IMG/VR virus record: IMGVR_UViG_3300034356_000337
Coordinates: 1 to 35,596 of that record
Length of the DNA stretch: 35,596 nucleotides
Direction: 5' to 3' (one strand)
Source: a virus
Below, in pieces: positions 1,185 to 35,596 of the stretch (positions are counted from its first letter, which is position 1; every line of letters begins with the position of its first letter). The notes under the pieces were generated by a model. The model saw nothing but the letters and a program-made list of their open reading frames with translations. It did not search any database and had not been told where the DNA came from. The position numbers and the translations under genes are program-made.

Positions 1185-1344
1185 ACATTATCTGCATCGG
1201 GAATTGAGTATAGATCAGCAAGGACTGAAGGATACACTCGCCTTCAATCCTGTTGAAGATTTCGCCGCCTATCGAGAGATAGTGGGCGAGATTCGTGGTA
1301 TCCAGCGAGTGCTAAGACTGTTAGAGGATTTACCTGATGACTGA
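1174..1344 (+). CDS. small hypothetical protein, GTG start (56 aa)
   Basis: A short frame starts with GTG, preceded by AGGA seven bases upstream. It overlaps the end of the portal gene by 11 bases and the start of the GroES-like gene by 8 bases. The product begins MELKHYLHRELSIDQQGLKD and is mostly charged helix (AYREIVGEIRGIQRVLRLLE), with no membrane segment. It fills exactly the gap that would otherwise lie between portal and co-chaperonin, and both overlaps suggest translational coupling. I do not recognise the family. A head-assembly accessory role is only a guess from position. Confidence 0.7.
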   Translation: MELKHYLHRELSIDQQGLKDTLAFNPVEDFAAYREIVGEIRGIQRVLRLLEDLPDD

Positions 1345-1702
1345 AGAAGCAAGCAAGTTAGAGCTACCGATACCCAAGGGCTACCGAATCCTGATTGCCA
1401 TACCGAAGAAGGATAAGGAGTTTAAGGATTCAAAAATATTAATACCTGAAGACCAAAGGCGTAGAGAGGAGACGGCATCAATTGTAGGAGTTGTTGTCAC
1501 CCTTGGTTCTATGGCGTATCAAGACCCTGAAAAGTTTCCAGATGGTCCTTGGTGTGCTGAAGGCGACTACATCATTATGAGGTCGTATTCTGGTACGAGG
1601 TTCAAAATCACCACGCCCGAAGGTGATCAAGAGTTTCGCATAATTAACGATGACACCGTTGAGGCTGTTGTTGCTGATCCACGGGTTGTTACCCGCATTT
1701 AA
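1337..1702 (+). CDS. GroES-like co-chaperonin
   Basis: The 121-residue product is the length of a Cpn10 subunit plus a short N-terminal extension. It has the family layout: a PKGYRILIAIP first strand, a lysine-rich stretch ending in KILIPEDQ around residues 30-40 where GroES carries its mobile loop with a hydrophobic GroEL-contact tripeptide (here probably ILI), then ETASIVGVVVTLG, a GDYIIMRSYSGT segment and a DDTVEAVV C-terminus. Phage co-chaperonins such as T4 gp31 replace host GroES so that GroEL can fold the capsid protein. Its place between portal and scaffold fits that role. The ATG overlaps the previous gene by 8 bases. Confidence 0.85.
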   Translation: MTEEASKLELPIPKGYRILIAIPKKDKEFKDSKILIPEDQRRREETASIVGVVVTLGSMAYQDPEKFPDGPWCAEGDYIIMRSYSGTRFKITTPEGDQEFRIINDDTVEAVVADPRVVTRI

Positions 1703-6172: not shown

Positions 6173-6451
6173 ATGGCAGACCAAGCCGCATATACCGCAG
6201 GATTGAATAAATCGACTCCATCAGAAGAAGAACGCAAAGAGATGCAGCGTATCCGTGATGAAGCTGCAATAGATAGGAATACCGACCTTGGGTATGAAAG
6301 GGCTACACGGGCTACTCCTCCTGCTGGCATGACTCCTGTTGGTCCGCCACGCAGTCAGCCTATTCGTAGAGCTAAGGGCGGGATGATCTCCGCTTCTAAG
6401 AGAGCGGACGGCATTGCAACCAAAGGTAAAACTAAAGGACGGATCATATAA
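6173..6451 (+). CDS. small protein with conserved basic C-terminal tail, member 1
   Basis: The 92-residue product has an acidic helical N-terminus (EEERKEMQRIRDEAAIDR), a proline-rich middle (PPAGMTPVGPPRSQP), and the shared tail KGGMISASKRADGIATKGKT followed by KGRII. The same tail ends several of the next genes. The stop and next start are fused as TAATG. I remember such KxGG...RADGIAxxGKTKGR tails in unnamed small proteins of many uncultured phages; no function is established that I know of. The strongly basic tail could bind DNA or the virion interior. Confidence 0.7.
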   Translation: MADQAAYTAGLNKSTPSEEERKEMQRIRDEAAIDRNTDLGYERATRATPPAGMTPVGPPRSQPIRRAKGGMISASKRADGIATKGKTKGRII

Positions 6452-6711
6452 TGGAGCAGCCCCGCGATACCGGAAGAGGTCCAGTGCTGGCAAGGGCGGT
6501 AGAGTATGCAGCAAATTCGCCGGGAAGAGGTCCGGTGCTGGCTAAGATGGTGAAGCTGGGAGAAGAAGATCCCGGTCCGGGTCCAGTTCTAGCGAAAATG
6601 CTAAGGATGAATGAATATGGGTATAGCAAGGGCGGTTCAGTAAAGTCATCAGCCTCTAGAAGGGCTGACGGAATCGCCACTAAAGGCAAGACAAAAGGCA
6701 GGATGATCTAA
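6451..6711 (+). CDS. small tail-family protein with triple GPVLAKM repeat, member 2
   Basis: The 86-residue product has two parts. Residues ~5-52 are three tandem units of about 17 residues: GRGPVLARAVEYAANSP, GRGPVLAKMVKLGEEDP and GPGPVLAKMLRMNE. The rest is the shared tail (KGGSVKSSASRRADGIATKG, then KTKGRMI). It starts inside the previous stop codon (TAATG) without a clear Shine-Dalgarno, so it probably depends on upstream translation. Tandem helical units plus a basic tail suggest a protein that packs on a repeating partner, but this is inference. Confidence 0.7.
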   Translation: MEQPRDTGRGPVLARAVEYAANSPGRGPVLAKMVKLGEEDPGPGPVLAKMLRMNEYGYSKGGSVKSSASRRADGIATKGKTKGRMI

Positions 6712-7147: not shown

Positions 7148-7533
7148 TGGGACAAGGCGCAGCACCAGTAGGCGTGGGTTCATCCCCAGCTCCAATAGTA
7201 GCGCCACCAGTGTCTTCTGCAGCCCCTCAGCAGCCTCAATTCAATTCGTTCATGCAAGCCTATGGGCAGAACAATATACCTCAGCAGCAGGCGTTTAATC
7301 GTCCGCAGCCGCCACAGGGTCAGCAGCTTGAGCTTATGCCTCAGAATAGAGGCGGATATGACCGTCAGCTTGACCAGTTAAGGGGTCAAGGTCAGTATGG
7401 TCAACAAGGATCGCAAGCGGCGCTTATAAATAATTTTCTAAGAAGCCAGTCGCAACTACCTGCAACCGGTCAGCCAAGCACCCCGCCAGTGGGCGGGAAA
7501 GGTGGAGGATCGTCTCCAACCGGTAGATATTAA
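7147..7533 (+). CDS. Gln/Pro/Gly-rich small protein without the tail
   Basis: The 128-residue product is low complexity: Pro/Ala/Val at the N-terminus (VGSSPAPIVAPPVSSAAPQQ), Gln-rich in the middle (QQQAFNRPQPPQGQQLELMP), and Gly/Ser/Pro at the end (PPVGGKGGGSSPTGRY). It lacks the RADGIAT tail but sits inside the same coupled series and ends in GGKGGG...GRY, which may be a decayed version. The composition indicates a disordered protein. TAATG overlaps join it to both neighbours. Confidence 0.65.
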   Translation: MGQGAAPVGVGSSPAPIVAPPVSSAAPQQPQFNSFMQAYGQNNIPQQQAFNRPQPPQGQQLELMPQNRGGYDRQLDQLRGQGQYGQQGSQAALINNFLRSQSQLPATGQPSTPPVGGKGGGSSPTGRY

Positions 7534-8297
7534 TGAAAAAGGCTAAGATAGCCATAGTAATGAGGGAGTTTAAAAAGGGGTCACTCAAGTCCTCATCAGG
7601 ACAGAAGGTGACTAATCCGAAGCAAGCTATCGCCATTTCTTTGAGCGAAGCTAAACGAGCCAAAGAGGGCGGAATGATGGGTAAATTATTTGGTGGCAAG
7701 GAGAGTTATAACGAAGAGTTTGGCGAAGCTAAGGCTGTAGCCAAAAGAAAGATAACCCCAGCTCAGTTTGCACGGGGAGAGAAAGCAGAAGGACACAAGG
7801 GTGAAGAGAAGAATGCTCGTCAGACCGCTGAGAAGATTATGTCTGGCAAGATCTCGCCTGCCGATTATGCAAAGAGTGAAACTACAGGAGAGAAGAAAAT
7901 GGCTAAAGGTGGAATGTCAGGATTTCCAGTTAAGCGTAAGGGTGCAGTAGACAAGAAGACTGTTGCTATGTTAGCCAGCAAGATACTGGACGCAAAGATG
8001 GGTGCAGCGCCAATGGCTCCCCCAGTGGCTCCTCCAATGATGCCTCCGGGCATGAAGAAGGGTGGGTCAGTGTCTAAACGCGCTGATGGCGTAGCTGTCA
8101 GAGGTCGTACAGATCCTAAAGTGGTTAAGATGGCTGCTGGTGGTATGTCCGAAGCCTTGGCTAAACATGCTGCTAAACCCGCTTCCAAAGCCCACGCCGG
8201 TCTTAGAGCTGGTGGCTTCGCTCGTTCAGCAGATGGTATTGCTCAACGTGGTCGTACCAAAGGCAAGTTGCTTAACAAGGGTGGGCGGGTTATCTAA
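7533..8297 (+). CDS. DUF6496-like protein with two internal tail motifs
   Basis: The 254-residue product starts with a block I recognise as DUF6496-like: MREFKKGSLKSSSGQKVTNP followed by KQAIAISLSEAKRA (residues ~10-43). A Lys/Glu/Ala-rich helical part follows (ITPAQFARGEKAEGHKGEEK, KISPADYAKSE), then Pro/Met-rich PPVAPPMMPPGMKKGG. Two tail motifs come next: KKGGSVSKRADGVAVRGRTD in the middle, and RSADGIAQRGRTKGKLLNKG at the C-terminus. It is the largest member of the tail family and seems to merge two tail-bearing units with a DUF6496 head. It is very basic and probably binds nucleic acid or the inner capsid; this is not proven. Confidence 0.72.
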   Translation: MKKAKIAIVMREFKKGSLKSSSGQKVTNPKQAIAISLSEAKRAKEGGMMGKLFGGKESYNEEFGEAKAVAKRKITPAQFARGEKAEGHKGEEKNARQTAEKIMSGKISPADYAKSETTGEKKMAKGGMSGFPVKRKGAVDKKTVAMLASKILDAKMGAAPMAPPVAPPMMPPGMKKGGSVSKRADGVAVRGRTDPKVVKMAAGGMSEALAKHAAKPASKAHAGLRAGGFARSADGIAQRGRTKGKLLNKGGRVI

Positions 8298-8846: not shown

Positions 8847-9587
8847 ATGACCACATCAGGCACAGCATCATCTAACCTAGACCTCACTAACATTATTGAG
8901 GAAGCGTTTGAGCGCTGCGGGGCAGAGCTACGCACTGGTTATGATATCCGTACAGCAAGACGCAGTTTAAACCTCCTGACGGTCGAATGGGCTAACCGGG
9001 GGATAAACCTGTGGACGATTGAAGAGGGTGAGATACCGTTAGTTCTTAATCAGGTCTCATACAATCTGCCTGTTGATACGATAGATCTTCTAGAACATGT
9101 AACAAGGGTAGGAACGGGTTCAAGTCAGCAGGACTTGTCTATAACCCGTATTAGCGTATCTACATACGCAACCATCCCTAACAAGAACTCAACTGGTCGT
9201 CCTATTCAATTGTGGGTTAACCGCCAGTCAGGAGCCACCTACCCAATAGGTGGCAGACCAGAAGGCACAGACCCCACTACTGGGGTAGACCATCCTCAGA
9301 TTTATGTATATCCAGCCCCAGATCAGAGCGATTACTACACGTTCGTCTACTGGCGCTTACGCAGGATACAAGACGCAGGCAATGGTATTAACACCCAAGA
9401 CATACCCTTCAGGTTCCTTACCTGCCTGATTGCTGGCTTGGCATACTACCTCGCCGTTAAGATAGCTCCAGACCGCATACAGTCCCTAAAGGACCAGTAT
9501 GAGGAACAGTGGAAGTTTGCTGCTGAAGAAGATAGAGACAAGTCTCCAGTGAGATTTGTCCCTCGCAGGGCTTATATTTGTGGGTAA
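8847..9587 (+). CDS. head-tail adaptor-like structural protein
   Basis: The 246-residue product has the layout of connector/adaptor proteins that dock on the portal: an N-terminal helical domain (LTNIIEEAFERCGAELRTGY, then DIRTARRSLNLLTVEWANRG), a beta domain (LWTIEEGEIPLVLNQVSYNL), a segment PQIYVYPAPDQSDYYTFVYW, and C-terminal helices (FRFLTCLIAGLAYYLAVKIA, then RIQSLKDQYEEQWKFAAEED). It resembles P22 gp4/T7 gp11-type adaptors in helix pattern and gene position. The hydrophobic helix near residue 195 is buried in such folds and need not be a membrane segment. It directly follows the previous stop (TAAATG). Confidence 0.72.
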   Translation: MTTSGTASSNLDLTNIIEEAFERCGAELRTGYDIRTARRSLNLLTVEWANRGINLWTIEEGEIPLVLNQVSYNLPVDTIDLLEHVTRVGTGSSQQDLSITRISVSTYATIPNKNSTGRPIQLWVNRQSGATYPIGGRPEGTDPTTGVDHPQIYVYPAPDQSDYYTFVYWRLRRIQDAGNGINTQDIPFRFLTCLIAGLAYYLAVKIAPDRIQSLKDQYEEQWKFAAEEDRDKSPVRFVPRRAYICG

Positions 9588-10184: not shown

Positions 10185-10366
10185 TGGCTATTCCAGAAAA
10201 AGCATCTAGCGTTAACCCTAGTCAGCCAAAGCCTATTACTGGGTTATCAGAAAAGGATCTGGGTAATAACGGATATCCAAACAATATCCCTAACACACAG
10301 ACCCAGAAGACCCGTGGTACTGGAGCCGCTACTAAAGGCACTGGTCACTCGAAGAAGATGGGCTAA
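10184..10366 (+). CDS. small disordered protein with RGTGAATKG end (60 aa)
   Basis: Pro/Asn/Ser-rich N-terminal part (SSVNPSQPKPITGLSEKDLG), then a C-terminal KTRGTGAATKGTGHSKKMG. The RGTGAATKG motif is familiar from the ends of small cyanophage and pelagiphage proteins. It is bounded by TAATG junctions. The ending is a further basic Gly/Lys tail, distinct from RADGIATKGKT but similar in composition. Function unknown. Confidence 0.68.
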   Translation: MAIPEKASSVNPSQPKPITGLSEKDLGNNGYPNNIPNTQTQKTRGTGAATKGTGHSKKMG

Positions 10367-11061
10367 TGAATTACACGGAACTATCGCAGACAATTAAGGC
10401 ATATTGTGAGAATGAGTTCCCACAAACAGTCAGTAGCTTTACGTCTGCCCAACAGATCAATACATTCATTGATCAGGCAGAGCAGCGGATATATAACAGC
10501 GTTCAGTTTCCTTCAATACGGAAGAATGTCACTGGGACGTTAACCGCTAATAATCAATATCTGTCAGCTCCCGGAGATTTTCTGGCGGTTTACTCGTTGG
10601 CTGTTATAGACACAATAACTGAAGCGTATGATTTCTTGCTTAACAAGGATGTTAACTTCATACGGGCTGCTTACCCTATCAAGACAGATACGGGAAAGCC
10701 GCAATACTACGCCCTGTTTGGACCAACAACCACTAACGATGCGTCACCTATCATAACGAATGAACTGTCATTCATTCTTGGACCAACTCCTGACTTGGCA
10801 TATGACGTAGAGCTTCATTACTATTACTACCCTGAATCAATCGTTACAGCAAATACAACATGGCTTGGGGATAACTTTTATAGTGTCCTGCTTTATGGCG
10901 CGATGCTAGAAGCAGCAGCGTTTATGAAGTCAGACAAAGACGTTATGGAAAATTACGTTTCCCGATATAATGAAGCATTGGCGCTTGCTAAACGTCTAGG
11001 TGATGGCATGGAAAGACAGGATGCTTACAGATCTGGACAAGTACGGATACCGGTTAAATAA
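10366..11061 (+). CDS. tail tubular A-like / gatekeeper structural protein
   Basis: The 231-residue product begins with a helical domain (YTELSQTIKAYCENEFPQTV, then INTFIDQAEQRIYNSVQFPS). A beta segment follows (RKNVTGTLTANNQYLSAPGD), then KPQYYALFGPT, SFILGPTPDLAYDVELHYYY, and C-terminal helices (SVLLYGAMLEAAAFMKSDKD). This pattern is that of T7 gp11-type tail tubular/gatekeeper proteins, which close the head-tail interface. Together with the 8847 gene it gives two related adaptor-type proteins, as in other short-tailed phages. TAATG junctions on both sides. Confidence 0.7.
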   Translation: MNYTELSQTIKAYCENEFPQTVSSFTSAQQINTFIDQAEQRIYNSVQFPSIRKNVTGTLTANNQYLSAPGDFLAVYSLAVIDTITEAYDFLLNKDVNFIRAAYPIKTDTGKPQYYALFGPTTTNDASPIITNELSFILGPTPDLAYDVELHYYYYPESIVTANTTWLGDNFYSVLLYGAMLEAAAFMKSDKDVMENYVSRYNEALALAKRLGDGMERQDAYRSGQVRIPVK

Positions 11062-11477
11062 TGCCATTTACTGGAAACTTTACCTGTGACGTATTCAAAT
11101 CAGGAGTTCTTGATGGGAACTTTGACTTTGGTGTTGGCACAACAAACGTATTCAAGATAGCGCTGTATACCAATGCATCAACTCTTGATCAGGATACCGC
11201 TGCCTATACAACCGTTGGTGAGGTTGTAGCGACTGGGTATACTGCCGGTGGCAATGTTCTGTCTCCAACCTTGAGCATACTGGACGGGACCGCATTTATC
11301 ACCTTCAATAATACCTCGTGGACAAGTGCATTGACCGCTCGTGGAGCGCTTATTTATAAGGTTGGTGGTGCATCGGTTTGTGTTTTAGATTTTGGTTCGG
11401 ACAAGATCTCAACTACGGTATTCCAAGTAGAATTTCCAGCCGCTTCCAATACTTCGGCAATTATTAGACTCTCTTAA
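11061..11477 (+). CDS. predicted beta-rich structural protein
   Basis: The 138-residue product has FKIALYTNASTLDQDTAAYT, VATGYTAGGNVLSPT and a C-terminal VFQVEFPAASNTSAIIRL. The FKIALYT...YT...GYTAGG pattern is common in small phage virion proteins that I remember only as hypothetical. No membrane segment. Location among adaptor and fibre genes suggests a tail or fibre-attachment part. Confidence 0.68.
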   Translation: MPFTGNFTCDVFKSGVLDGNFDFGVGTTNVFKIALYTNASTLDQDTAAYTTVGEVVATGYTAGGNVLSPTLSILDGTAFITFNNTSWTSALTARGALIYKVGGASVCVLDFGSDKISTTVFQVEFPAASNTSAIIRLS

Positions 11478-11488
11478 AGGATTTTCAA

Positions 11489-12064
11489 ATGATTTCAAAT
11501 AAAGCGGTTTCTGTAGACAAGATAGGTGCAAGCGTTCTGCTAGGCGGAGCAACAACTTCTGCTGCTGGTGGCGCTGGCGTATTTACGATCCAATGTTTTG
11601 GTCAAGATGGCAAGCTGAAATGGGAAGAAAAGAACCCAAATCTGGTTGTTAACGAAGGACTTCAAGACATGAATGACAAGTACTTTTCTGGGTCTACCTA
11701 CACCGCAGCTTGGTATCTAGGTCTGATTACTGGTCCCGGTCCTGCAACCATTGCTGCAGCAGATACCTTAGCTTCGCATACAGGCTGGACCGAATACACA
11801 GACTACACGGGTAACCGTAAAGCTGTAACTTTTGGTGCAGCAACTCTTGCTGATCCTTCAGTTATTAGTAACTCAGGCGCACCTAATGCATTTGCTATTA
11901 CAGCTCCCGGCGGCACTGTTGCTGGCGCTTTCTTGGCTTCAGTAGCTACAGGTACATCAGGTATTTTGTTCTCAGCTTCTGACTTCCAGTCCCCCGGTGA
12001 TCGCGCTGTAGTTGCTGGCGACACCTTGAATGTTACTTACACATTCAGTCTTGACGCTGCATAA
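11489..12064 (+). CDS. predicted tail/fibre-associated structural protein
   Basis: AAAGGAT precedes the ATG. The 191-residue product contains FTIQCFGQDGKLKWEEKNPN and LVVNEGLQDMNDKYFSG, then TAAWYLGLITGPG and a beta-rich C-terminus ending LNVTYTFSLDAA. The DGKLKWE...NLVVNEGL...WYLGL order occurs in a frequent family of phage structural proteins without known function. It pairs with the 11061 product, which has a similar beta-rich design. Confidence 0.68.
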   Translation: MISNKAVSVDKIGASVLLGGATTSAAGGAGVFTIQCFGQDGKLKWEEKNPNLVVNEGLQDMNDKYFSGSTYTAAWYLGLITGPGPATIAAADTLASHTGWTEYTDYTGNRKAVTFGAATLADPSVISNSGAPNAFAITAPGGTVAGAFLASVATGTSGILFSASDFQSPGDRAVVAGDTLNVTYTFSLDAA

Positions 12065-12075
12065 GGAGATATAAA

Positions 12076-12255
12076 ATGGCAACGAAATTCATTAAAGGTC
12101 AGAACGTAAAGGTTCAAGCAACCGTTCCTCAAGGTCCGGTACAGGCGCTTCGTATGACGGAAGATGGAAACTTCTTCTACAGTATTGAGTGGACCGATGC
12201 TGACGGTGTTAAGCAAAACCGCTGGTTTCCAGAAGCCGCTTTGACCGAAGCGTAA
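12076..12255 (+). CDS. small YodC/DUF2158-like protein (59 aa)
   Basis: AAGGAGAT lies upstream of ATG 12076. The 59-residue product (FIKGQNVKVQATVPQGPVQA, then FFYSIEWTDADGVKQNRWFP) has the form of a small SH3-like barrel: start strand with KGQxVK, central strand SIEW, and RWFPEAAL at the end. This recalls the DUF2158/YodC family, which has a WF..G....FP.E.L ending. I infer this from pattern only. Confidence 0.62.
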   Translation: MATKFIKGQNVKVQATVPQGPVQALRMTEDGNFFYSIEWTDADGVKQNRWFPEAALTEA

Positions 12256-12256
12256 T

Positions 12257-13126
12257 GTGTTTGGAATCTCATCATTTGCAGCCGCACCATTTGCGTCACT
12301 AGCAGGAGCTTTTCTAAACTCTGAAGTTAGTGAATCAACTTCTGCGTCAGACTCTATTGTAGGAAGCCCAGTAATTTATGTGGCGGTGACTGAATTTGTT
12401 ATTGCAGCAGATACGGCAATAACATTTGCAGTTTTAAGCTCAAATATAGCTGAGTCTGCAATAGCTTCTGACCAAGCGTCTGCAATTCAAGCGTTTGCTT
12501 CTGCCATACAAGAGTCTGCTGTAGCAGAAGATCAAGCTTCCTCCTCAGTAGAATTAAACAGCGTTATCTTGGAGTCAGTAACTGGCGCTGATGTAGTGGC
12601 TGCTCTAGCTGAGATGAACTCTGCTGTTATAGAGGCTGCCTCTGCTTCTGATGTTATATCTGCTCAAGCCACGTTTGAAGGTGCTGTAACAGAGCAAGCA
12701 ACAGCATCTGAGCAAGTATCCGCAACAGAGATTTTTGCAACCAATATAAATGAATCTGCTGCAGGCACTGACCAAGCGAATGCATCTCACAGTATTGGCA
12801 GCTCTATACAGGAGTCTGCGGCTGGATCTGATGCTATAGGGGCGTTAGCCTACCTCAGTGGATTTATTATTGAAGGCGCTGCTGCCTCTGATGCTGTTGA
12901 TAGCATGGCGGAGTTCCATTCAAGCATACAGGAGTTGATTAGCGCTTCTTCAGCTACGTCTACTGCTGCTAATTTTATAACCTCAATTAATGAGCTTGCT
13001 CAGGCTTCAGATTCCCTTGCAGGAAGCCCTCTCTGGGAGGTAATTAATACCTCAGAATCTACCACTTGGAGTACAATAAATACTTCAGATACAGGTGGTT
13101 GGCAAGTGATTAAAACTCAACCATAA
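12257..13126 (+). CDS. fibre-like protein with ten 20-residue repeats
   Basis: The GTG at 12257 gives an N-terminus MFGISSFAAAPFASLAG like other phage proteins of this type. Residues 46-245 are ten consecutive units of exactly 20 residues, each starting with Glu and following E-S-A-x-A-S-D-x(10)-I-x (for example ESAIASDQASAIQAFASAIQ). The C-terminus has three tryptophans at 10-residue spacing (WEVINTSEST, WSTINTSDTG, WQVIKTQP), a common end of phage fibre or spike proteins. The exact period suggests a regular solenoid or trimeric rod whose length is set by repeat number. Placed first in the fibre block, it may be a spacer or attachment rod. Confidence 0.75.
   Translation: MFGISSFAAAPFASLAGAFLNSEVSESTSASDSIVGSPVIYVAVTEFVIAADTAITFAVLSSNIAESAIASDQASAIQAFASAIQESAVAEDQASSSVELNSVILESVTGADVVAALAEMNSAVIEAASASDVISAQATFEGAVTEQATASEQVSATEIFATNINESAAGTDQANASHSIGSSIQESAAGSDAIGALAYLSGFIIEGAAASDAVDSMAEFHSSIQELISASSATSTAANFITSINELAQASDSLAGSPLWEVINTSESTTWSTINTSDTGGWQVIKTQP
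12392..12991 (+). repeat. ten tandem 60-bp units coding 20-residue repeats
   Basis: Ten 60-base units in frame within the gene at 12257, each beginning with a Glu codon. The protein repeat is exact in length, while the DNA has diverged: Ser, Ala and Glu codons vary between units. This indicates an old array kept by protein-level selection. Confidence 0.85.
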
Positions 13127-13135
13127 TAGGGACAT

Positions 13136-15556
13136 ATGGCACTCATCTTAGCTGACAGAGTAAAAGAGACTTCCACCACCGCTGGCAATGGAACATTCAC
13201 GCTTGCTGGGGCTGCTGCTGGCTTTCAGTCCTTTGCTGTAGTTGGCAATGGAAATACCACCTACTACTGTATCGCAGGGCAGGGAACTAATGAATGGGAA
13301 GTAGGCATTGGAACCTATACATCTTCTGGTACTACACTAGCCCGTACTACAGTTCTATCTAACAGTTCAGCAACAGAGCCAACAGCGCTAATATTTGCCG
13401 CTGGAACCAAGGACGTATTCGTTACCTACCCTTCAGAGAAGTCAGTCAATCTGGATGCATCAGGTAATGCAACTGCATTAGGTACACCAGTAGCCTTTAC
13501 AGGTACAAACATAACTGGCACTGCAGCAGGTCTTACCGCGGGCGAGGCAACCATACTAGAGACTGCGCGGAACATAGCAGGTGTGTCTTTTGATGGCTCT
13601 GCTGCTATATCAATACCATTAGAGAATCTATCCGATGTATCAATTGGTACCGCGGTTGTTAATGAGTTGCTTGGGTATAACGGCACAGCTTGGGTTAATG
13701 TTGCGCCAAACTCGGCGTCAGCGGGAACAGGGGTTGTGTTTTATAACGCCACTCCAGTCATAACTGCGGCAGGAGCTAACAGCGATGTAGCTATTCTTAC
13801 CTTTGCATCCATCCCAGTAACAACAGCAGAGCAAGTAATTACAGGAACAGCAGTTAGTAACACTGTGCTTTTCTCTGCTTTTGTCACTGTTGCGCTGAAT
13901 AGACTTCTATTTGATGCCGGGGTATATGACTTCACAATATGGGCTGGTGTAGACAGCGTTGCTGGTGGCTCTGTTACAACCATTACTAGACAGATATATA
14001 CAGCCACTCCTTTTGTAGTTGGTACTGTAACTACCACAGGCACAGGATCAAGCCGCACAGCTACAGCGTCATCAGGAACGCCCTTTGCTACTTCGGTGAT
14101 AGATGCTTCTGCTACGAATACAACTGCATCATACTTACAGACCCCCCAAGGTCTATATCAGATAACAGCTAGAACCTCTGACACGGTAGTAACTATTACT
14201 ACACCTAGTGGGTATACCAATGAATCAGCAGTTGCTGGTACTGTATGGAAGAAACTGTTTGGGATTACTACTCCAACAATAACATCTATATCCCCTAATT
14301 ACACTGACTTTGGTGTAATTACAACGCAGCCATCTACAGTAGTTACTACTGCAACAAAGATGGGTATTCTTGGGTTTGTTACTTCAGATGCCACTAGGAC
14401 TATATCGCTTACCTACAATGGCGAAGATAGAAATACCCACGTTAATACGCCTCTGGCTAACCTACACAATGACTTGGCTGGGTTGCAGGGCGGAGTTGCT
14501 ACAGAGTATTTTCACTCTACCTCTGCTGAATATACAGGCACAGGCACTGGAGTCTTTGTAAGAGCAACGTCTCCTGCTCTAGTAACGCCAGATCTAGGCA
14601 CTCCAAGTGCGTTAGTAGGAACTAACATAACCGGCACAGCTACAGCATTTACTGCTAGTAACGTAACCACCAATGCTAACCTAACGGGCGAAGCTACCTC
14701 TGTAGGCAACGCAGCCACTCTAACCAACTCAGCGGTTATAGGTAAGGTCTTAACTGGATACACATCAGGGGCGGGGACAGTAGCGGCTACAGATACCATT
14801 CTTCAGGCAATAGAGAAGTTAAATGGTAATACCGCAGCAGTTCCCGGTACAGTAACTTCAGTATCAGTAGTATCAAATAACGGCTTTGCTGGCACAGTAG
14901 CTACTGCTACATCTACTCCAGCTATAACCTTAACAACTACAGTAACAGGCATGTTAAAGGGCAGCTCTGTATCTGGGATTGTAAGTGCTGGGACAAGTGG
15001 CACTGATTATTCTGACGGTACTTCAGCCCTAGCTACTGGTATATTAAAGAGTACAACCACAACTGGTGCGCTGACTATAGCGGTAGCGGCAACGGACTAT
15101 GTGGCTCCAAGCGCATATGCTTCAGCTAATGGTCTTACAATGGCTACAGCTAGGTTATTAGGTAGGACTACAGCATCAACGGGTGCAGCGGAAGAAATCA
15201 CGGTAGGAACTGGGCTGTCCTTAGTTACAGGTACGCTATCATCAACAGCAACCTCGGCATCTCTGGCTAACGACACAACCTCATCTTCTTATATATACCC
15301 AGTCTTTGCCACCGGAACAACCGGTGTAATAGCAAACTTATATACATCCAATGCCAAGCTGCTTTACAAGCCATCAACAGGTGAGCTGGCAGTAACAGCC
15401 CCTATAGCCGCTAACGGCTTAGTACTTAACGCGACTACTGTAGCTACAAGTTATACTATTGCCGCTGGGTACAATGCTTCCTCAGTAGGTCCAATAACTG
15501 TGAGCGGTGGCGTTGTGGTCACGATCACATCAGGGCAGCGTTGGTTGGTCCTTTAG
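13136..15556 (+). CDS. large tail fibre protein
   Basis: The 806-residue product is rich in Thr, Ala, Ser and Gly. The N-terminal ~100 residues (ALILADRVKETSTTAGNGTF...EWEVGIGTYT...TTVLSNSS) are a familiar virion-attachment domain. Repeated LGTPxAxxGTNITGTA modules follow at ~13480-13530 and ~14595-14640. A long beta region contains KVLTGYTSGAGTVAATDTIL and ALATGILKSTTTTGALT, and the C-terminal tip is YTIAAGYNASSVGPITVSGG then VVVTITSGQRWLVL. A related tip ends the next fibre gene. This is a typical elongated trimeric fibre; the receptor is unknown. Confidence 0.82.
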   Translation: MALILADRVKETSTTAGNGTFTLAGAAAGFQSFAVVGNGNTTYYCIAGQGTNEWEVGIGTYTSSGTTLARTTVLSNSSATEPTALIFAAGTKDVFVTYPSEKSVNLDASGNATALGTPVAFTGTNITGTAAGLTAGEATILETARNIAGVSFDGSAAISIPLENLSDVSIGTAVVNELLGYNGTAWVNVAPNSASAGTGVVFYNATPVITAAGANSDVAILTFASIPVTTAEQVITGTAVSNTVLFSAFVTVALNRLLFDAGVYDFTIWAGVDSVAGGSVTTITRQIYTATPFVVGTVTTTGTGSSRTATASSGTPFATSVIDASATNTTASYLQTPQGLYQITARTSDTVVTITTPSGYTNESAVAGTVWKKLFGITTPTITSISPNYTDFGVITTQPSTVVTTATKMGILGFVTSDATRTISLTYNGEDRNTHVNTPLANLHNDLAGLQGGVATEYFHSTSAEYTGTGTGVFVRATSPALVTPDLGTPSALVGTNITGTATAFTASNVTTNANLTGEATSVGNAATLTNSAVIGKVLTGYTSGAGTVAATDTILQAIEKLNGNTAAVPGTVTSVSVVSNNGFAGTVATATSTPAITLTTTVTGMLKGSSVSGIVSAGTSGTDYSDGTSALATGILKSTTTTGALTIAVAATDYVAPSAYASANGLTMATARLLGRTTASTGAAEEITVGTGLSLVTGTLSSTATSASLANDTTSSSYIYPVFATGTTGVIANLYTSNAKLLYKPSTGELAVTAPIAANGLVLNATTVATSYTIAAGYNASSVGPITVSGGVVVTITSGQRWLVL

Positions 15557-15572
15557 AAAACAGGAGATAGAA

Positions 15573-16811
15573 ATGGCAAGTACCTATTCAGCGCTTAAAG
15601 TTGAACTGATCACTACAGGAGAACAGGTAGGCGATTGGGGTAACACTACGAACACCAATCTGGGGACGGCGTTAGAAGAGGCAATTGTAGGCAGAGTAGC
15701 GGTAAACTTTGATACAGACGCTAACTTGACGATATCCCTGACAAATACCAATACAACACAGGCAGCAAGAAACTTCATACTTAACTTAACCTCTTCTGGC
15801 GCATTGACCGCTACTAGAAGTTTAATAGTCCCAACAATCAGCAAGCCTTACCTTATTGAGAACAATACAACAGGGGGCAGAAGCATACTGGTAAAGACTG
15901 CGGCTGGAAATGGAATTACAGTTCCTAACGGAACCCGTGCGTTGGTTTATGCTAATAGCACAGACGTAGTCGCAGCGTTTAGCTATGCTCCTACAATTGT
16001 CGCAGACTCTGTAACAAACACAGCCCTTACAGTTACAAGAGTCCCATACGCATCCACAGGCGGGCTGCTAGTAGACAGTGCTAACCTAACCTTTAACGGC
16101 ACTACAGTGTCTACAGGCGGCGTTACAGCTGCTGGCGCAGTATCATCTGCAACGGTAACGGCTTCTGGTTTGATAACCGGTGGATCAATTACGGACTCAG
16201 CATTAACATCAGGTAGAGTGACCTATGCCACAACAGCCGGATTGCTTACAGATAGCGCTAACCTGACATTTAACGGGACAACGCTAACAACTACAGCTAT
16301 AAGCACTGCATCCTTAACCGCATCAGGTCTTACCCCTACACGAGTTCCTTTTGCCACAACAGGCGGTCTGATTACAGACAGCGCTAACTTAACCTTTAGC
16401 GGTACTGTACTGACCTCTGCTGGCTTTGCTGGACCTTTAAACGGCACGGTCGGAGCTACAACGGCAACTACAGGTCTATTCACCACCATAGGCGCTACTG
16501 GAGACGGTACATTCTCAGGTACTGGTCAGGTAAAGATGCCAGCCGGTAATACTGCACAAAGATCTGGCGCACCTAGCAACGGAATGTTTAGGTACAATTC
16601 TGATCTAATAGCGTTTGAAGGGTATGTTGGCGGTATATGGAGTGGTGTAGGTGGGGCGCAGGCTAATGGTGTAATATTTGAGAACTCACTCATCATCACA
16701 GAAAACTACACATTGACTACAGGTAAGAACGGATTTAGTGTTGGACCAATCACAATTGATTCGGGCGTTTCGGTAACTATTCCGGTAGACCAGCGCTGGG
16801 TTGTTCTCTAG
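15573..16811 (+). CDS. tail fibre protein with three DSANLTF repeats
   Basis: The ATG at 15573 follows CAGGAGAT; longer in-frame starts overlap the previous gene. The 412-residue product begins STYSALKVELITTGEQVGDW followed by GNTTNTNLG, the classic N-terminal domain of many phage fibres. Three shaft repeats contain TRVPYASTGGLLVDSANLTF or close variants. Then come QRSGAPSNGMFRYNSDLIAF (a common fibre domain) and a C-terminal tip SVGPITIDSGVSVTIPVDQR followed by WVVL. The tip is homologous to the end of the 13136 product, suggesting module sharing. Confidence 0.82.
   Translation: MASTYSALKVELITTGEQVGDWGNTTNTNLGTALEEAIVGRVAVNFDTDANLTISLTNTNTTQAARNFILNLTSSGALTATRSLIVPTISKPYLIENNTTGGRSILVKTAAGNGITVPNGTRALVYANSTDVVAAFSYAPTIVADSVTNTALTVTRVPYASTGGLLVDSANLTFNGTTVSTGGVTAAGAVSSATVTASGLITGGSITDSALTSGRVTYATTAGLLTDSANLTFNGTTLTTTAISTASLTASGLTPTRVPFATTGGLITDSANLTFSGTVLTSAGFAGPLNGTVGATTATTGLFTTIGATGDGTFSGTGQVKMPAGNTAQRSGAPSNGMFRYNSDLIAFEGYVGGIWSGVGGAQANGVIFENSLIITENYTLTTGKNGFSVGPITIDSGVSVTIPVDQRWVVL
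16029..16415 (+). repeat. three diverged fibre-shaft repeats
   Basis: Three copies of a block coding (T/G)RV(P/T)(Y/F)ATTGGL(L/I)xDSANLTFxGT begin near 16035, 16215 and 16340. The core GCTAAC...TT...GGxAC is recognisable in the DNA at each copy. They lie in the fibre gene at 15573 and build its shaft. Confidence 0.7.
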
Positions 16812-30708: not shown

Positions 30709-33700
30709 TGGCATACGAAATAGATCTGCCGGACGGGTCTCGTGGGCTAATTCATGATAATGTTCCAAGAGCCAAGGCTCTAGAGGCTGCACAACGCGCC
30801 TATCCAGAAGCATTCCCACCTCCACCTACAGCTTTTAGTCAGGCTTTAAACGCTCCAAGGAATATTGCAAGGGGAGTTGGGTCTGGTCTGGTCCAAGCTG
30901 TAGGGGGGTTAAGCTCTCTCCCATACGCCGCTGCTCGTTATTTCAATCCAGAGATGACTCCGTTTGCAGAGACGGGCTTTGGCAAATCCGTCACAGAAAC
31001 AGAGCAATCATTAGCCCCGACCGATGAAGGTCTTGGGTCTCAGTTTGCACATGGCTTGGGTACATTCGGATCAATGCTTGGTCCGCAAGCTGGTTTAAGA
31101 GGGCTTGGGACAGTAATAAAGGGAGTTGCTCCTCGCGCAGCAGCCCCTGTAGCGGTGGCTCAATCAGCCGGTCTAGGGGCAGAAGAAGCCCGTCAGCGGG
31201 TAGAGACCGCTCGTGCTGAAGGAAAGATAATCAGCCCCGGTCAAGAGTTCGGAGCATTGGCTACCGGCGCTCCTATCGGTCTAACAGAACTCCTCCCAAT
31301 ACAGAATCTATTCAGAGCCACTAAGGGTCTGTCTAAACCTTCTGACTTAACTGCGCTTGCTTATGGCAAGAGAGCGCTACAGCAGGGCGCTGTAGAAGGC
31401 GTACAGGAAGCAGGCTCTGGAGTCTTGCAAGACATAGCCGCTCAACAGATATACAACCCAGACCAAGAGATCGGCGGATCAGCCCTTAAAGAAGGGGCAA
31501 TGGGTGCTGGGGTAGGAGCAGTAGCTCAAGTAGGTCTGGATCTAGTTCTCAGGAAGGACATCCGCAAAGCCTACCAAGCAAGCCTAGCCAAGAAGGATAA
31601 GGAAGAGTTGGATAAAGCTATGCAGGCGGCTAAGGATACCGCTGATGCAGATGCTGCTTCACGCCCTAAAGAGAAGATGGCGGCTGCACAAGACAAGCAT
31701 CCTATCTACAACCCGTTAGGCAACTTCTCAGCCCAGAAGCAGACCGTTGCTGATGACGGGACCACAACCCAGTCAGCAGGTTTAAACGCAGATCATCTGG
31801 CATTCATTAACAAAACAAGGGCAGAAGCAGGCAAGCCTCTACTGAAGGCGTTCTCTGTAGAAGATCTGTCTGATGCCGGTATGCCTCAGCAAGAAATCAG
31901 CAATCTAATTGCAGAGAAGATGGGGTTTGTCCCTAGCGATACAGATGTAGCTAATGCTCCTCAGCACATAGCAACCGTTTTAAACATCGCCGGACAGAAG
32001 AATGTAGATGCTAACTCGCAAGGGTTCAGAGATTTCCTTCGTAGGTCTACAGGAACGGATGATTTAAACAGTATGAGTCCTCCTCAACTGTTCTCTGCTA
32101 TCAAAGCTGTCAGTGCATTGCCTATCTCGAAGACTCCTTTGCAACTGGCAGGCACAAGCGCAACGCGCTTCTCGGAAGAGCAATACGATGTAGCGATAAA
32201 GAATTTAAACGCTGACCATACAGAAGACAACGCTCTCTCGTTAGCGGACACTATCGATAAGATCAAGGGCTACACTGGATTGAAGAACGATGTGGATGCA
32301 GAGTCATTACTGCATACCGCAGCCGGTCGGGGCGACCTGTACGCAAAGTCATACCCCAACCCAGACGGGACGACTAATATCAATGTGCATGTTCCGAACG
32401 CCAACAAGGTAGCTGGCGGTCCTGACGTTAGAGAGAACACATACGCATCTGATTCTGTGCCTGAGTCTTATGTAATTAAGACATCGCAGGGTGATCTAGA
32501 AGAACATGCAACCGAAGAAAAGGCTAAGTCAAGACTCGACACCCTTGCCACTGCGCGGCAGGGTCTTGCGGTCAGGAACACCAGAGAGGCGGCTAAACTA
32601 GGGGACCAGATTGCCCAGAGCCAGACCGAGCTAGACACAATGGCTGCTCAGGGACTGACCAATACCATTGAGTATCAGACCAAGGCTGCAGGCTTAGAAA
32701 GCAAGAACCAAGCAAAGCTCGCTAAGATAGAGAGTTTAAACGCAGCCGCTGAGAATTTGGCAGAGCCTCTGACGGTGGAGCCTAGAGGTGAGAAGATCAC
32801 CACCAAGTCTGACTACACTCTGTACGATAACAACGAGGCAGCCGGAACATTCGACAGTAGAGAAGAAGCGCAAGCACATGCCGTGTCTAAACTTCCTGAC
32901 GATACCCTGCGTCAGATAATAGCCGCTGCGCCTAACCAGAAGGGCAACCTAGCCGCTGAGTTGAGCGTCATGGCTCAGGATGAGCTGAAGGCTAGATACG
33001 GCTCTGTAGAGGGTATACGCGAACCTCATATGGTTGGTAACAAAAAGGCAGAAGAAAGGTTGTTAAGTGCCGGTATGTTTACTGGACGCTTCAAAGAACA
33101 GGCAGCAGAGTTAGACAGAAAGCTTCGTCCGCTGATGACTCGTCTTGGCTTGGGTGATCTGCATTTAAACATCGTTAACGCAATCAGAGCAAGCAACGAA
33201 TCTACGGCAGACGGCGAGTATTCCAAGAAGCTAATAAAGATTGCTATAGATGCCGAGAAACCAATGAGGGTTCTAAGGCATGAGGGTGTCCATGCCCTTA
33301 TAGAGTTGGGTGCTTTCTCTAAAGACCAGCTGAGAGTCCTAGAGAACAAAGCCAAGTCTGAGTGGATCAGCAAATACAATATCATTGAAAGGTATCAGGG
33401 TTTAAACCTCAGCCCAGAGGCATTGATTGAAGAAGCCATTGCTGACGCATTCTCTGACTTTGATCAGACCAAGCCTCCAGCAGGTCTTATCGGCGCTGTG
33501 TTTAACAAGATCAAGTCCTTCATGGAAGCGTTAGGCAACAGCCTTGACGGGATTGGGTTCCATACAGCCGATAGTATCTTTAGCAAGGTGGAGGCTGGTC
33601 GCTTACCCGCCACCAGAGAGCCAACCTCTATGGAGCCTAAATACGGCGCGTTTGAGTATCCCTATGACAAGTCAGTGAAGCTCAAGAAGACCGGCTCGGG

Positions 33701-35596
33701 GGTATGGGGCGGCAACGGGATGGGAACGAGTAAAGCGGATTGGTCTGTTGTTGGTCATCCGAATATAACGATGACCGGAACTAAGGCTGGATATATCGTG
33801 AAGGACTCCAGTACTGGGCATAGAACTGTAGCTGACTCTAAGTCGCACGCCCTTTACAAGATATCAAAACTCCTTGGCAAGGATGAGGCTGGATATACGG
33901 ACACCTCAAAACCATCTACAACCACAACAACAGGAGCGTTCTCTCTGAGAGAAGGACCACCTAAACCGTTGGGTGAGAAGCAAGCTCGTATCTACGCTAG
34001 TGAGCTTGAGAGACTGGTCAAGAGAGTTGGCGAGAGGATTGCAGGGATGGAGTCTGGGAAGACTCTAGAGGACGTTAGAGCGGCTGTTAAGAAGTTACAG
34101 CAATACACTAACGAGGGAATTAAAGGAAAGGAATGGTACGAAGATTCGGCTAAAGCCATCTTGAATGCCTTCAATGGAGACAAGGTTCTTGCTGAGAAGT
34201 TCTTCCAAATCATTTCAATCACCTCAGCCAATACAGAGGTTGCTGCTAACTTTACCAAAGCATCTAAAGCATGGGAGCAGTTTGCCCGTGGTGCTGAGAT
34301 TAAGGTTGGCACAGGAAGAGAGAATAAGGCTGTTAGCGACCTACTGAATTTTGGTATTGACTGGGATGGTCGTAAGACAAATACCTTCTACTCGAACTTC
34401 ATGGATGCAATGGAAGGAAAGGACAGCGGTCGTTCTACCATTGACCTCCACATGACACGGATGCTGTTTGACCGCGACACCCCTACAGACGCTCAGTATG
34501 AATTGGCTGAGAACTTGGTTAGGTTGGTTGCAAGCAAACGGAATCTGCCAGCTAGACAAGTTCAAGCTGCCTCTTGGATAACACAAAAAGCTAAGACAAT
34601 ATTTGAGCGTTATCGTGCGAAGGGTTACAAGAAGGCTCTGAGTGATGCTCAGTTGCGTGAGTACGCAATGGAGATGGCAATCGTAGATTACTCTCATCTA
34701 CTGGGTAAGCGCACAACTCCCCTACCTGTAACAACGAAGCTACAGAAACCATCCGCAGAAACTAGAGCAGAGACTCATGTCATAACCGGAGAAGTCATAC
34801 CATCCGTATCTTCTGAGATGGGACAGGTCGCAGAATTAAAGCATAAAGCCAAAGAAGATTTAAACAAGATAATTCTAGACTCAGGCGCTATTCAAGGAAT
34901 GGCTCGGGCGCTTAACCTTAAAAGCAAAGTTAGGGTATCAGTTGGGAGCGGAGGATATGCTGGAGGCATCACCCCTAATCTAATTGTTCATGTTCATCAT
35001 GATGACCCAGCGATAGCCAAGCAAGATGCAATGGCCTTGTCGCAAGCAATGACCTATGCATTTAAACAAGATGCAGTTCCATTCTTCCGAGCAGACCCAG
35101 CTCTGGCTGACAAAGCGCAGCTAGGATATCGGTTTAGATTTAAACGCAAAGAGCTAACTTTGACGCAAGAAAGAAAGATGTTTAAAGCTCTTCAAGAAGA
35201 GCTTGGTCCATTGGCTGGATATACAAAGACCCGTGCCAATGAATTGGTTCTGATAAACTACACTGGATCAGATGCGTTTGTTGAGTCTGCTGAAGGGTTT
35301 GCAGATATTGCAAAGCGGTTTGAAACTAAGATTAACGAGATTGCCGAACTAGAAGACACTTCAGTGTTTGGCGCAGAATCGGAGTACCCATATCATGACT
35401 GGACAGAGCAGCCTGCTGGAGAAGATCTTATCAAAGGGCTTCAAACTAGCGAAGCCGGACGATCCAATATACTCAGAAGGCTGGACGATGTCCGTGAATC
35501 CTTCAAGTCTTCTGCCAGAGAAGCGGTTAGGTCCGAAGGCAAAGAGCCAAGGTTCTCCCTCCGCCAAACAAAAACCCCAGAGTTTAAACAATGGTT
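30708..35596 (+). CDS. giant polyvalent internal virion protein, HExxH protease domain (3' end outside window)
   Basis: The frame starts at a TAATG junction and stays open to the last base: 1,629 complete codons, no stop. Residues 1-35 are a virion-type opening (YEIDLPDGSRGLIHDNVPRA). Gly/Ala-rich hydrophobic stretches lie at ~52-78 and ~229-281 (GVQEAGSGVLQDIAAQQIYN, GAMGAGVGAVAQVG), and a coiled coil at ~605-690. Zinc-protease motif R-H858-E-G-V-H862 is followed by a likely third ligand E908/E909 in EEAIADAF. A helical domain comes near 1195-1300, and FSLR-bearing linkers occur at ~1079 and near the end. The last residues (PRFSLRQTKTPEFKQW) match the lead-in to ART/PLxxYHGT-type domains of large polyvalent phage proteins. 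Such DarB-like proteins are ejected to disarm host defence. Confidence 0.8.
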   Translation, partial: MAYEIDLPDGSRGLIHDNVPRAKALEAAQRAYPEAFPPPPTAFSQALNAPRNIARGVGSGLVQAVGGLSSLPYAAARYFNPEMTPFAETGFGKSVTETEQSLAPTDEGLGSQFAHGLGTFGSMLGPQAGLRGLGTVIKGVAPRAAAPVAVAQSAGLGAEEARQRVETARAEGKIISPGQEFGALATGAPIGLTELLPIQNLFRATKGLSKPSDLTALAYGKRALQQGAVEGVQEAGSGVLQDIAAQQIYNPDQEIGGSALKEGAMGAGVGAVAQVGLDLVLRKDIRKAYQASLAKKDKEELDKAMQAAKDTADADAASRPKEKMAAAQDKHPIYNPLGNFSAQKQTVADDGTTTQSAGLNADHLAFINKTRAEAGKPLLKAFSVEDLSDAGMPQQEISNLIAEKMGFVPSDTDVANAPQHIATVLNIAGQKNVDANSQGFRDFLRRSTGTDDLNSMSPPQLFSAIKAVSALPISKTPLQLAGTSATRFSEEQYDVAIKNLNADHTEDNALSLADTIDKIKGYTGLKNDVDAESLLHTAAGRGDLYAKSYPNPDGTTNINVHVPNANKVAGGPDVRENTYASDSVPESYVIKTSQGDLEEHATEEKAKSRLDTLATARQGLAVRNTREAAKLGDQIAQSQTELDTMAAQGLTNTIEYQTKAAGLESKNQAKLAKIESLNAAAENLAEPLTVEPRGEKITTKSDYTLYDNNEAAGTFDSREEAQAHAVSKLPDDTLRQIIAAAPNQKGNLAAELSVMAQDELKARYGSVEGIREPHMVGNKKAEERLLSAGMFTGRFKEQAAELDRKLRPLMTRLGLGDLHLNIVNAIRASNESTADGEYSKKLIKIAIDAEKPMRVLRHEGVHALIELGAFSKDQLRVLENKAKSEWISKYNIIERYQGLNLSPEALIEEAIADAFSDFDQTKPPAGLIGAVFNKIKSFMEALGNSLDGIGFHTADSIFSKVEAGRLPATREPTSMEPKYGAFEYPYDKSVKLKKTGSGVWGGNGMGTSKADWSVVGHPNITMTGTKAGYIVKDSSTGHRTVADSKSHALYKISKLLGKDEAGYTDTSKPSTTTTTGAFSLREGPPKPLGEKQARIYASELERLVKRVGERIAGMESGKTLEDVRAAVKKLQQYTNEGIKGKEWYEDSAKAILNAFNGDKVLAEKFFQIISITSANTEVAANFTKASKAWEQFARGAEIKVGTGRENKAVSDLLNFGIDWDGRKTNTFYSNFMDAMEGKDSGRSTIDLHMTRMLFDRDTPTDAQYELAENLVRLVASKRNLPARQVQAASWITQKAKTIFERYRAKGYKKALSDAQLREYAMEMAIVDYSHLLGKRTTPLPVTTKLQKPSAETRAETHVITGEVIPSVSSEMGQVAELKHKAKEDLNKIILDSGAIQGMARALNLKSKVRVSVGSGGYAGGITPNLIVHVHHDDPAIAKQDAMALSQAMTYAFKQDAVPFFRADPALADKAQLGYRFRFKRKELTLTQERKMFKALQEELGPLAGYTKTRANELVLINYTGSDAFVESAEGFADIAKRFETKINEIAELEDTSVFGAESEYPYHDWTEQPAGEDLIKGLQTSEAGRSNILRRLDDVRESFKSSAREAVRSEGKEPRFSLRQTKTPEFKQW

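Follow-up and report, generated by a model that had tools for sequence, protein, structure and literature searches.

A widespread and unnamed family of repeat proteins from aquatic phages, built from acidic 20-residue units of variable number

Introduction

The window analyzed here, that is, the whole 35,596-nucleotide stretch of IMG/VR virus record IMGVR_UViG_3300034356_000337, contains a gene whose product is dominated by a strictly phased 20-residue repeat. The locus raises the question of what such a protein does for a phage, and of whether the strict spacing marks a length ruler, as suggested by a first-pass annotation made from the sequence alone. Here, the repeat is delimited, its relatives among uncultured phages are described, and its gene context, predicted structure, and likeness to known repeat fibres are weighed.

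Architecture of the repeat protein

The repeat protein of 289 residues is encoded at 12257–13126 (plus strand, stop included) from a GTG start, with both start and frame common to all near relatives. Its dN/dS relative to relatives of the same length is 0.44–0.78, which points to a translated gene under mild constraint. The protein is acidic, containing one Lys and no Arg; in its repeat core, acidic residues make up 12.9% and basic ones are absent (core values for L001, a protein identical to that of the window).

Ten Glu-first units of exactly 20 residues had been assigned to residues 46–245. These units are exact, but the array is longer—that is, it comprises twelve units at residues 26–265 (12332–13051, plus strand), with residues 26–45 (ESTSASDSIVGSPVIYVAVT) and 246–265 (ELAQASDSLAGSPLWEVINT) sharing the same phase. 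Self-identity at a lag of 20 amounts to 78 matches versus 28.6 in shuffles (z = 10.2, against a chance limit of 4.3, the 99.9th percentile of the shuffles' largest z at any lag), followed by raised values at lags 40 and 60. Lag 5 is weakly raised and falls under that limit (z = 3.4); with neither a 5- or 6-residue period nor a Pfam repeat match, a pentapeptide or hexapeptide β-solenoid was rejected. Position 1 of the unit is Glu and position 5 is Ala or Gly in all twelve units, position 7 is Asp or Glu in 11, and position 19 is Ile or Val in 11. The E-S-A-x-A-S-D front proposed for the unit thus holds as a consensus but is not invariant, Ser occurring at position 2 in 6/12 units, Ala at position 3 in 8/12, and Ser at position 6 in 8/12. 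Pairwise DNA identity between the twelve units is 27–60%, which rules out recent DNA slippage as the origin of the array and indicates that the array is old; no 60-bp array was reported by Tandem Repeats Finder.

The two ends differ from the array. The N-terminal cap (MFGISSFAAAPFASLAGAFLNSEVS; 12257–12331, plus strand), a putative anchor, consists of residues 1–25 rather than the 22 residues originally given, since the array begins at residue 26; its residues 16–25 resemble half of a unit. In the wider family, two alternative cap types occur, FG-x-x-x-FA-x-x-PFA and GGWGSGTWGQAGWG. At residue 260, a second, Trp-marked repeat of 11 residues takes over from the array (W-x10, with W260, W271, and W282), followed by a terminal IKTQP and overlapping the last 7 residues of unit 12 (13031–13123, plus strand). 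The W-spaced C-terminus noted earlier is therefore a strict 11-residue repeat; indeed, in two sets of relatives, every Trp spacing (211/211 and 256/256, 467 in total) equals 11. Among 81 non-redundant full-length members, the tail holds 3, 4, or 6 Trp residues, once 2, and never 5. Compared pairwise, 25 near relatives are on average 95% identical in the cap, 84% in the tail, and 47% in units 1–10 matched by position.

Relatives, copy number, and order of units

As had been surmised, the protein belongs to no named family: no match was found in Pfam or NCBIfam, and the closest PHROG (12240) is a family of unknown function. The window protein itself does not match PHROG 12240 at E ≤ 1, two longer relatives match it at E values of 4e-9 and 2.5e-12, and a further relative, L086, matches it as well. 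A clear member of this PHROG is protein WPJ30581.1 of Pseudoalteromonas phage vB_PalP_Y7 (E 7.7e-104), in which a D-x-A-x-A-S-D motif is likewise repeated; however, the motif spacing there looks uneven on inspection by eye, and at the C-terminus lies another domain, without W-x10 repeats. A tblastn search of annotated phages with five family members returned nothing but one weak Pseudoalteromonas match, the repeats probably being hidden by the BLAST low-complexity filter. The repeat is also absent from the genes translated in Vibrio VS-ABTNL-3, Manatee Spring ctwe8250, and Pelagibacter HTVC023P, isolated phages with neighbouring genes, and no cultured relatives with this exact architecture were found. 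A sequence search of the PDB gave chance RecA matches only. In GTDB genome contigs, none of 228 pattern matches was confirmed, and there is hence no sign of prophages carrying the family. No published description of the repeat family was found in the open literature, which is weak evidence of absence.

Relatives are encoded on more than 200 uncultured-phage contigs. Scanning IMG/VR with the window protein yielded 47 loci. With an alignment of units as the query, 192 loci were confirmed, and with a distant member as the query, 465 relatives; in both cases, the best 80 were kept. A further scan gave another 52 loci. These proteins form an unnamed, widespread phage repeat-protein family, the general architecture of which is a cap, then units of consensus ESATASDxVSAxxxFxxxI, and then LWELIDDSQTxxWxxI with Trp every 11 residues. 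The 20-residue phase is kept in the relatives, 1604 of 1643 unit-to-unit steps (97.6%) measuring exactly 20. Across 816 distinct units, the most fixed positions are E1 (95%) and D7 (85%); V/I occupies position 9 in 68%, F/L/Y/I/W/V position 15 in ~90%, and I/V position 19 in 90%, with even positions polar and odd ones mostly small or hydrophobic.

The number of units, by contrast with their length, is not fixed. Relatives with other copy numbers were sought and found, with a range from 9 to ~71 units; near relatives with a common cap and tail have 12, 15, 24, 29, 33, 38, ~41, or ~71. In many relatives with 24–38 units, as opposed to the 12 found here, the upstream genes are 97–100% identical to those of the window. 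Examples of such long arrays beside near-identical upstream genes are L022 (29 units), L037 (33), and L034 (24), although the gene corresponding to that at 11489 is only ~91% identical in these three, unlike the other upstream genes. DNA alignments of near relatives reveal homologous blocks displaced from one another by a whole number of units, most often 4, 5, or 9. A copy number varying from 9 to ~71, even beside flanking genes that are 97–100% identical, does not fit the length ruler suggested at first; conserved ends with a middle free in length describe a spacer of variable length.

Two members carry insertions. In L032 (1501 aa), a Gly-Trp insert (IGYGWGLGYGWGLGAWGSSG) about one-third along the array interrupts ~71 otherwise in-phase units; it looks like the WG cap found elsewhere in the family, as though it marked a fusion of two proteins. 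In L105 (656–2806), a Gly_rich_2 domain (PF21722, E 8e-16) is inserted among the units.

The order of the units has a period of its own. In 40 proteins, units separated by a lag of 4 or 5 resemble each other more than in shuffled orders (z = 11 at both lags), with further maxima at lags 9 and 14. Near relatives gave z values of 8.1, 10.0, 5.7, and 5.5 at lags 4, 5, 9, and 14, respectively, together with an excess of synonymous codon identity, suggesting that the period there is partly block duplication. Distant relatives gave z values of 6.4 and 6.1 at lags 4 and 5 without any such codon excess, making a simple duplication of recent date less likely there. Spectral peaks lie at 4.8 units in the near set and 4.3 units in the distant set, and are carried partly by unit position 13; in a replication set consisting mostly of WG-cap loci, many of them positional orthologues, the effect is weaker and peaks at 5.3 units. 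The two candidate explanations for this second-order period of ~4.5–5 units are a superhelix and old block duplications.

Gene context and the partner fibre

The repeat gene lies in a tail-fibre module with conserved synteny. Upstream on the plus strand are an SU10-adaptor-like gene (8847–9587; PF24175, E 7.6e-8), an SU10-type adaptor gene (10366–11061; PF24175, E 1.7e-20), a phrog_644 gene (11061–11477), and a phrog_8123 gene (11489–12064) with a weak match to phrog_4176 (tail fiber); neither phrog_644 nor phrog_8123 has an assigned function. A small ORF of 59 aa (12076–12255, plus strand) ends one base ahead of the repeat gene. Downstream on the same strand follow a tail-fibre gene of type 1 (13136–15556), with ~110 N-terminal residues matching proteins mostly annotated as tail fibers, and a second tail-fibre-like gene of type 2 (15573–16811), starting with MASTYSALK. 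The order SU10 adaptor, phrog_644, phrog_8123, repeat protein, and tail fibre is kept in most loci examined.

Elsewhere in the window, a GroES-like co-chaperonin (phrog_3188, E 4.5e-8) is encoded upstream of the capsid genes at 1337–1702 (plus strand). Three Lys-rich ORFs (6173–6451, 6451–6711, and 7533–8297, plus strand) have in common a C-terminal motif like SASKRADGIATKGKTKGR, recurring within 7533–8297 as KRADGVAVRGRTDPK and RSADGIAQRGRTKGK. The last 4.9 kb (30709–35596) contains no plus-strand ORF of at least 80 aa and three minus-strand ORFs of 106–119 aa.

The type of cap is matched with the type of the following fibre. An FG cap, as in the window, is followed by a fibre of the 13136 type (type 1) in 21/21 identified cases among relatives lying after phrog_8123 and in 12/12 fresh loci (33/33 in total). 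A WG cap is followed by a fibre of the 15543 type, the type 2 partner of WG caps elsewhere, in 10/10 and 68/68 cases, respectively (78/78 in total); for the fresh loci, only cases with a typeable next gene are counted. The pairing is partly confounded by phylogeny, and shared descent accounts for some of it. Four loci also hold a fibre of the 13136 type, yet the WG repeat gene there is immediately followed by a fibre of the 15543 type, suggesting that the cap cooperates with the fibre encoded next.

Predicted structure and proposed role

AlphaFold2 modelling of the full protein as a single chain with 45 sequences gave a low-confidence model (pLDDT 53, pTM 0.47; pLDDT 57–66 over most units) with strands in each of the twelve units, at approximately unit positions 18–3 and 8–15. 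Modelling of the C-terminal part of L018 with a more diverse alignment gave no fold (pLDDT 43). A structure search with the monomer model found no match at E ≤ 0.001 in the PDB or BFVD; the non-significant PDB matches obtained with Foldseek (best E 0.34) were largely parallel β-helices, phage tailspikes among them, and the best BFVD match, also non-significant, was an unnamed phage protein. On the basis of the full-protein model, β structure is likely in the repeat units, in the form of a solenoid or of a trimeric stalk, the two geometries suggested at first. The first description of the protein as fibre-like is thus upheld by its position adjoining tail-fibre genes and by the two strands modelled, at low confidence, in every unit.

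The best reading is a very acidic, β-structured stalk, anchored at its N-terminus and tipped by the W repeats, and we put at roughly 0.6 the probability that the gene product serves as a structural spacer in the adsorption apparatus of the phage. The cap (FG..FA..PFASL) would dock on the tail or adaptor region, beside or onto the fibre encoded by the next gene. The 20-residue units, each with two short β strands and hydrophobic residues at alternating positions, would stack into a regular, very acidic rod, with the C-terminal 11-residue W repeats as its distal end. Copy number would set the length of the rod, which may change in evolution as whole units are gained, lost, or exchanged while both ends are retained. 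Presence in the virion, the rod shape, the identity of the distal end, the oligomeric state, and the role in adsorption are what we infer from repeat, context, and model. The 20-residue recurrence of E1 and D7 in a protein nearly devoid of basic residues makes cation binding a reasonable guess.

The composition of the units counts against a stalk, since sequences rich in Ala, Ser, Thr, Asp, and Glu and nearly free of Lys and Arg are also typical of disordered acidic linkers. The protein might then be a mostly disordered bristle or linker, with the repeats keeping composition rather than structure and acting as an entropic spacer or a charge brush on the virion; an average of 46% A/S/T, 14% acidic, and 1% basic residues, as well as the pLDDT values of 53 and 43, would fit such a protein. 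However, the phase is exact over 97.6% of steps and the hydrophobic positions 9, 15, and 19 are fixed, and disordered linkers are not known to hold phase and buried-type positions in this way. Disorder is accordingly an unlikely account of the protein.

The two SU10-type adaptor genes close by allow the spacer to be placed instead at the adaptor ring, as a head or collar fibre or whisker that is not receptor-binding and aids weak attachment to hosts or particles; the tail fibres are equally close, however, and it is with the tail fibre that the cap type is matched, making this location improbable. Least probable is a non-virion helper, that is, a chaperone or template with the repeats as scaffold, on which the tail fibre of the next gene would be assembled: fibre assembly genes commonly adjoin fibre genes, and this one lies directly upstream of a fibre with strict type-matching, but no chaperone family is matched, the copy number goes from 12 to 71 while the N-terminal domain of the downstream fibre stays conserved, and the glycine-rich domain of L105, of a kind found in tail proteins, better suits an exposed fibre.

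A tentative, rather doubtful extension of the stalk reading is that the acidic unit represents a fibre fold absent from solved structures—an evolvable spacer employed by a large group of uncultured aquatic phages, with one superhelical turn per ~4.5–5 units, and with ladders of E1 and D7 held by divalent cations. If true, the superhelix would explain both the second-order period and the frequent gains and losses of 4, 5, or 9 units.

Comparison with known repeat fibres

Repeat fibres are known as a kind, whereas the unit, the double-repeat architecture, and the copy-number range found here are unmatched in the libraries searched. In the adenovirus fibre, an N-terminal anchor peptide is followed by a β-repeat shaft and a distal domain, the number of repeats sets the length, and the unit of the triple β-spiral is ~15 residues with a conserved Gly/Pro turn. 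The anchor, repeat shaft, and distal end proposed for the phage protein are similar in principle, but its unit is exactly 20 residues and has no conserved Gly or Pro column, and no sequence relation to the adenovirus fibre was found in the PDB sequence search; the structure of the adenovirus shaft is described elsewhere (PMC3386624). The triple-stranded β-helix of the T4 gp5 type, a phage needle of changeable length, has a repeated VxGxxxxx motif (PMC4576200), and thus an 8-residue motif with an invariant Gly, as opposed to 20 residues with no fixed Gly. Collagen-like sequences occur in prophages (PMC3368898), and the collagen-like stalks of phage tail fibres are also repeat stalks within fibre proteins; here, however, there is no Gly-X-Y, Gly being rare (14 of 289 residues) and not present at every third residue. 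Parallel β-solenoids (tailspikes, pentapeptide repeats, and SufB/SufD) are the best Foldseek class for the monomer model, but their coils are 5-residue or irregular, and no match was significant.

Significance

With no Pfam or NCBIfam model available, members of this family will be annotated as hypothetical proteins. In viral fibres, the length of the shaft sets the distance over which a receptor is reached. Otherwise near-identical phages carrying, at one locus, 12 to at least 38 units in whole-unit steps therefore constitute a natural series for relating fibre length to adsorption, and one in which the ends are fixed and the partner fibre matches in type; the protein may also provide a length-programmable β scaffold.
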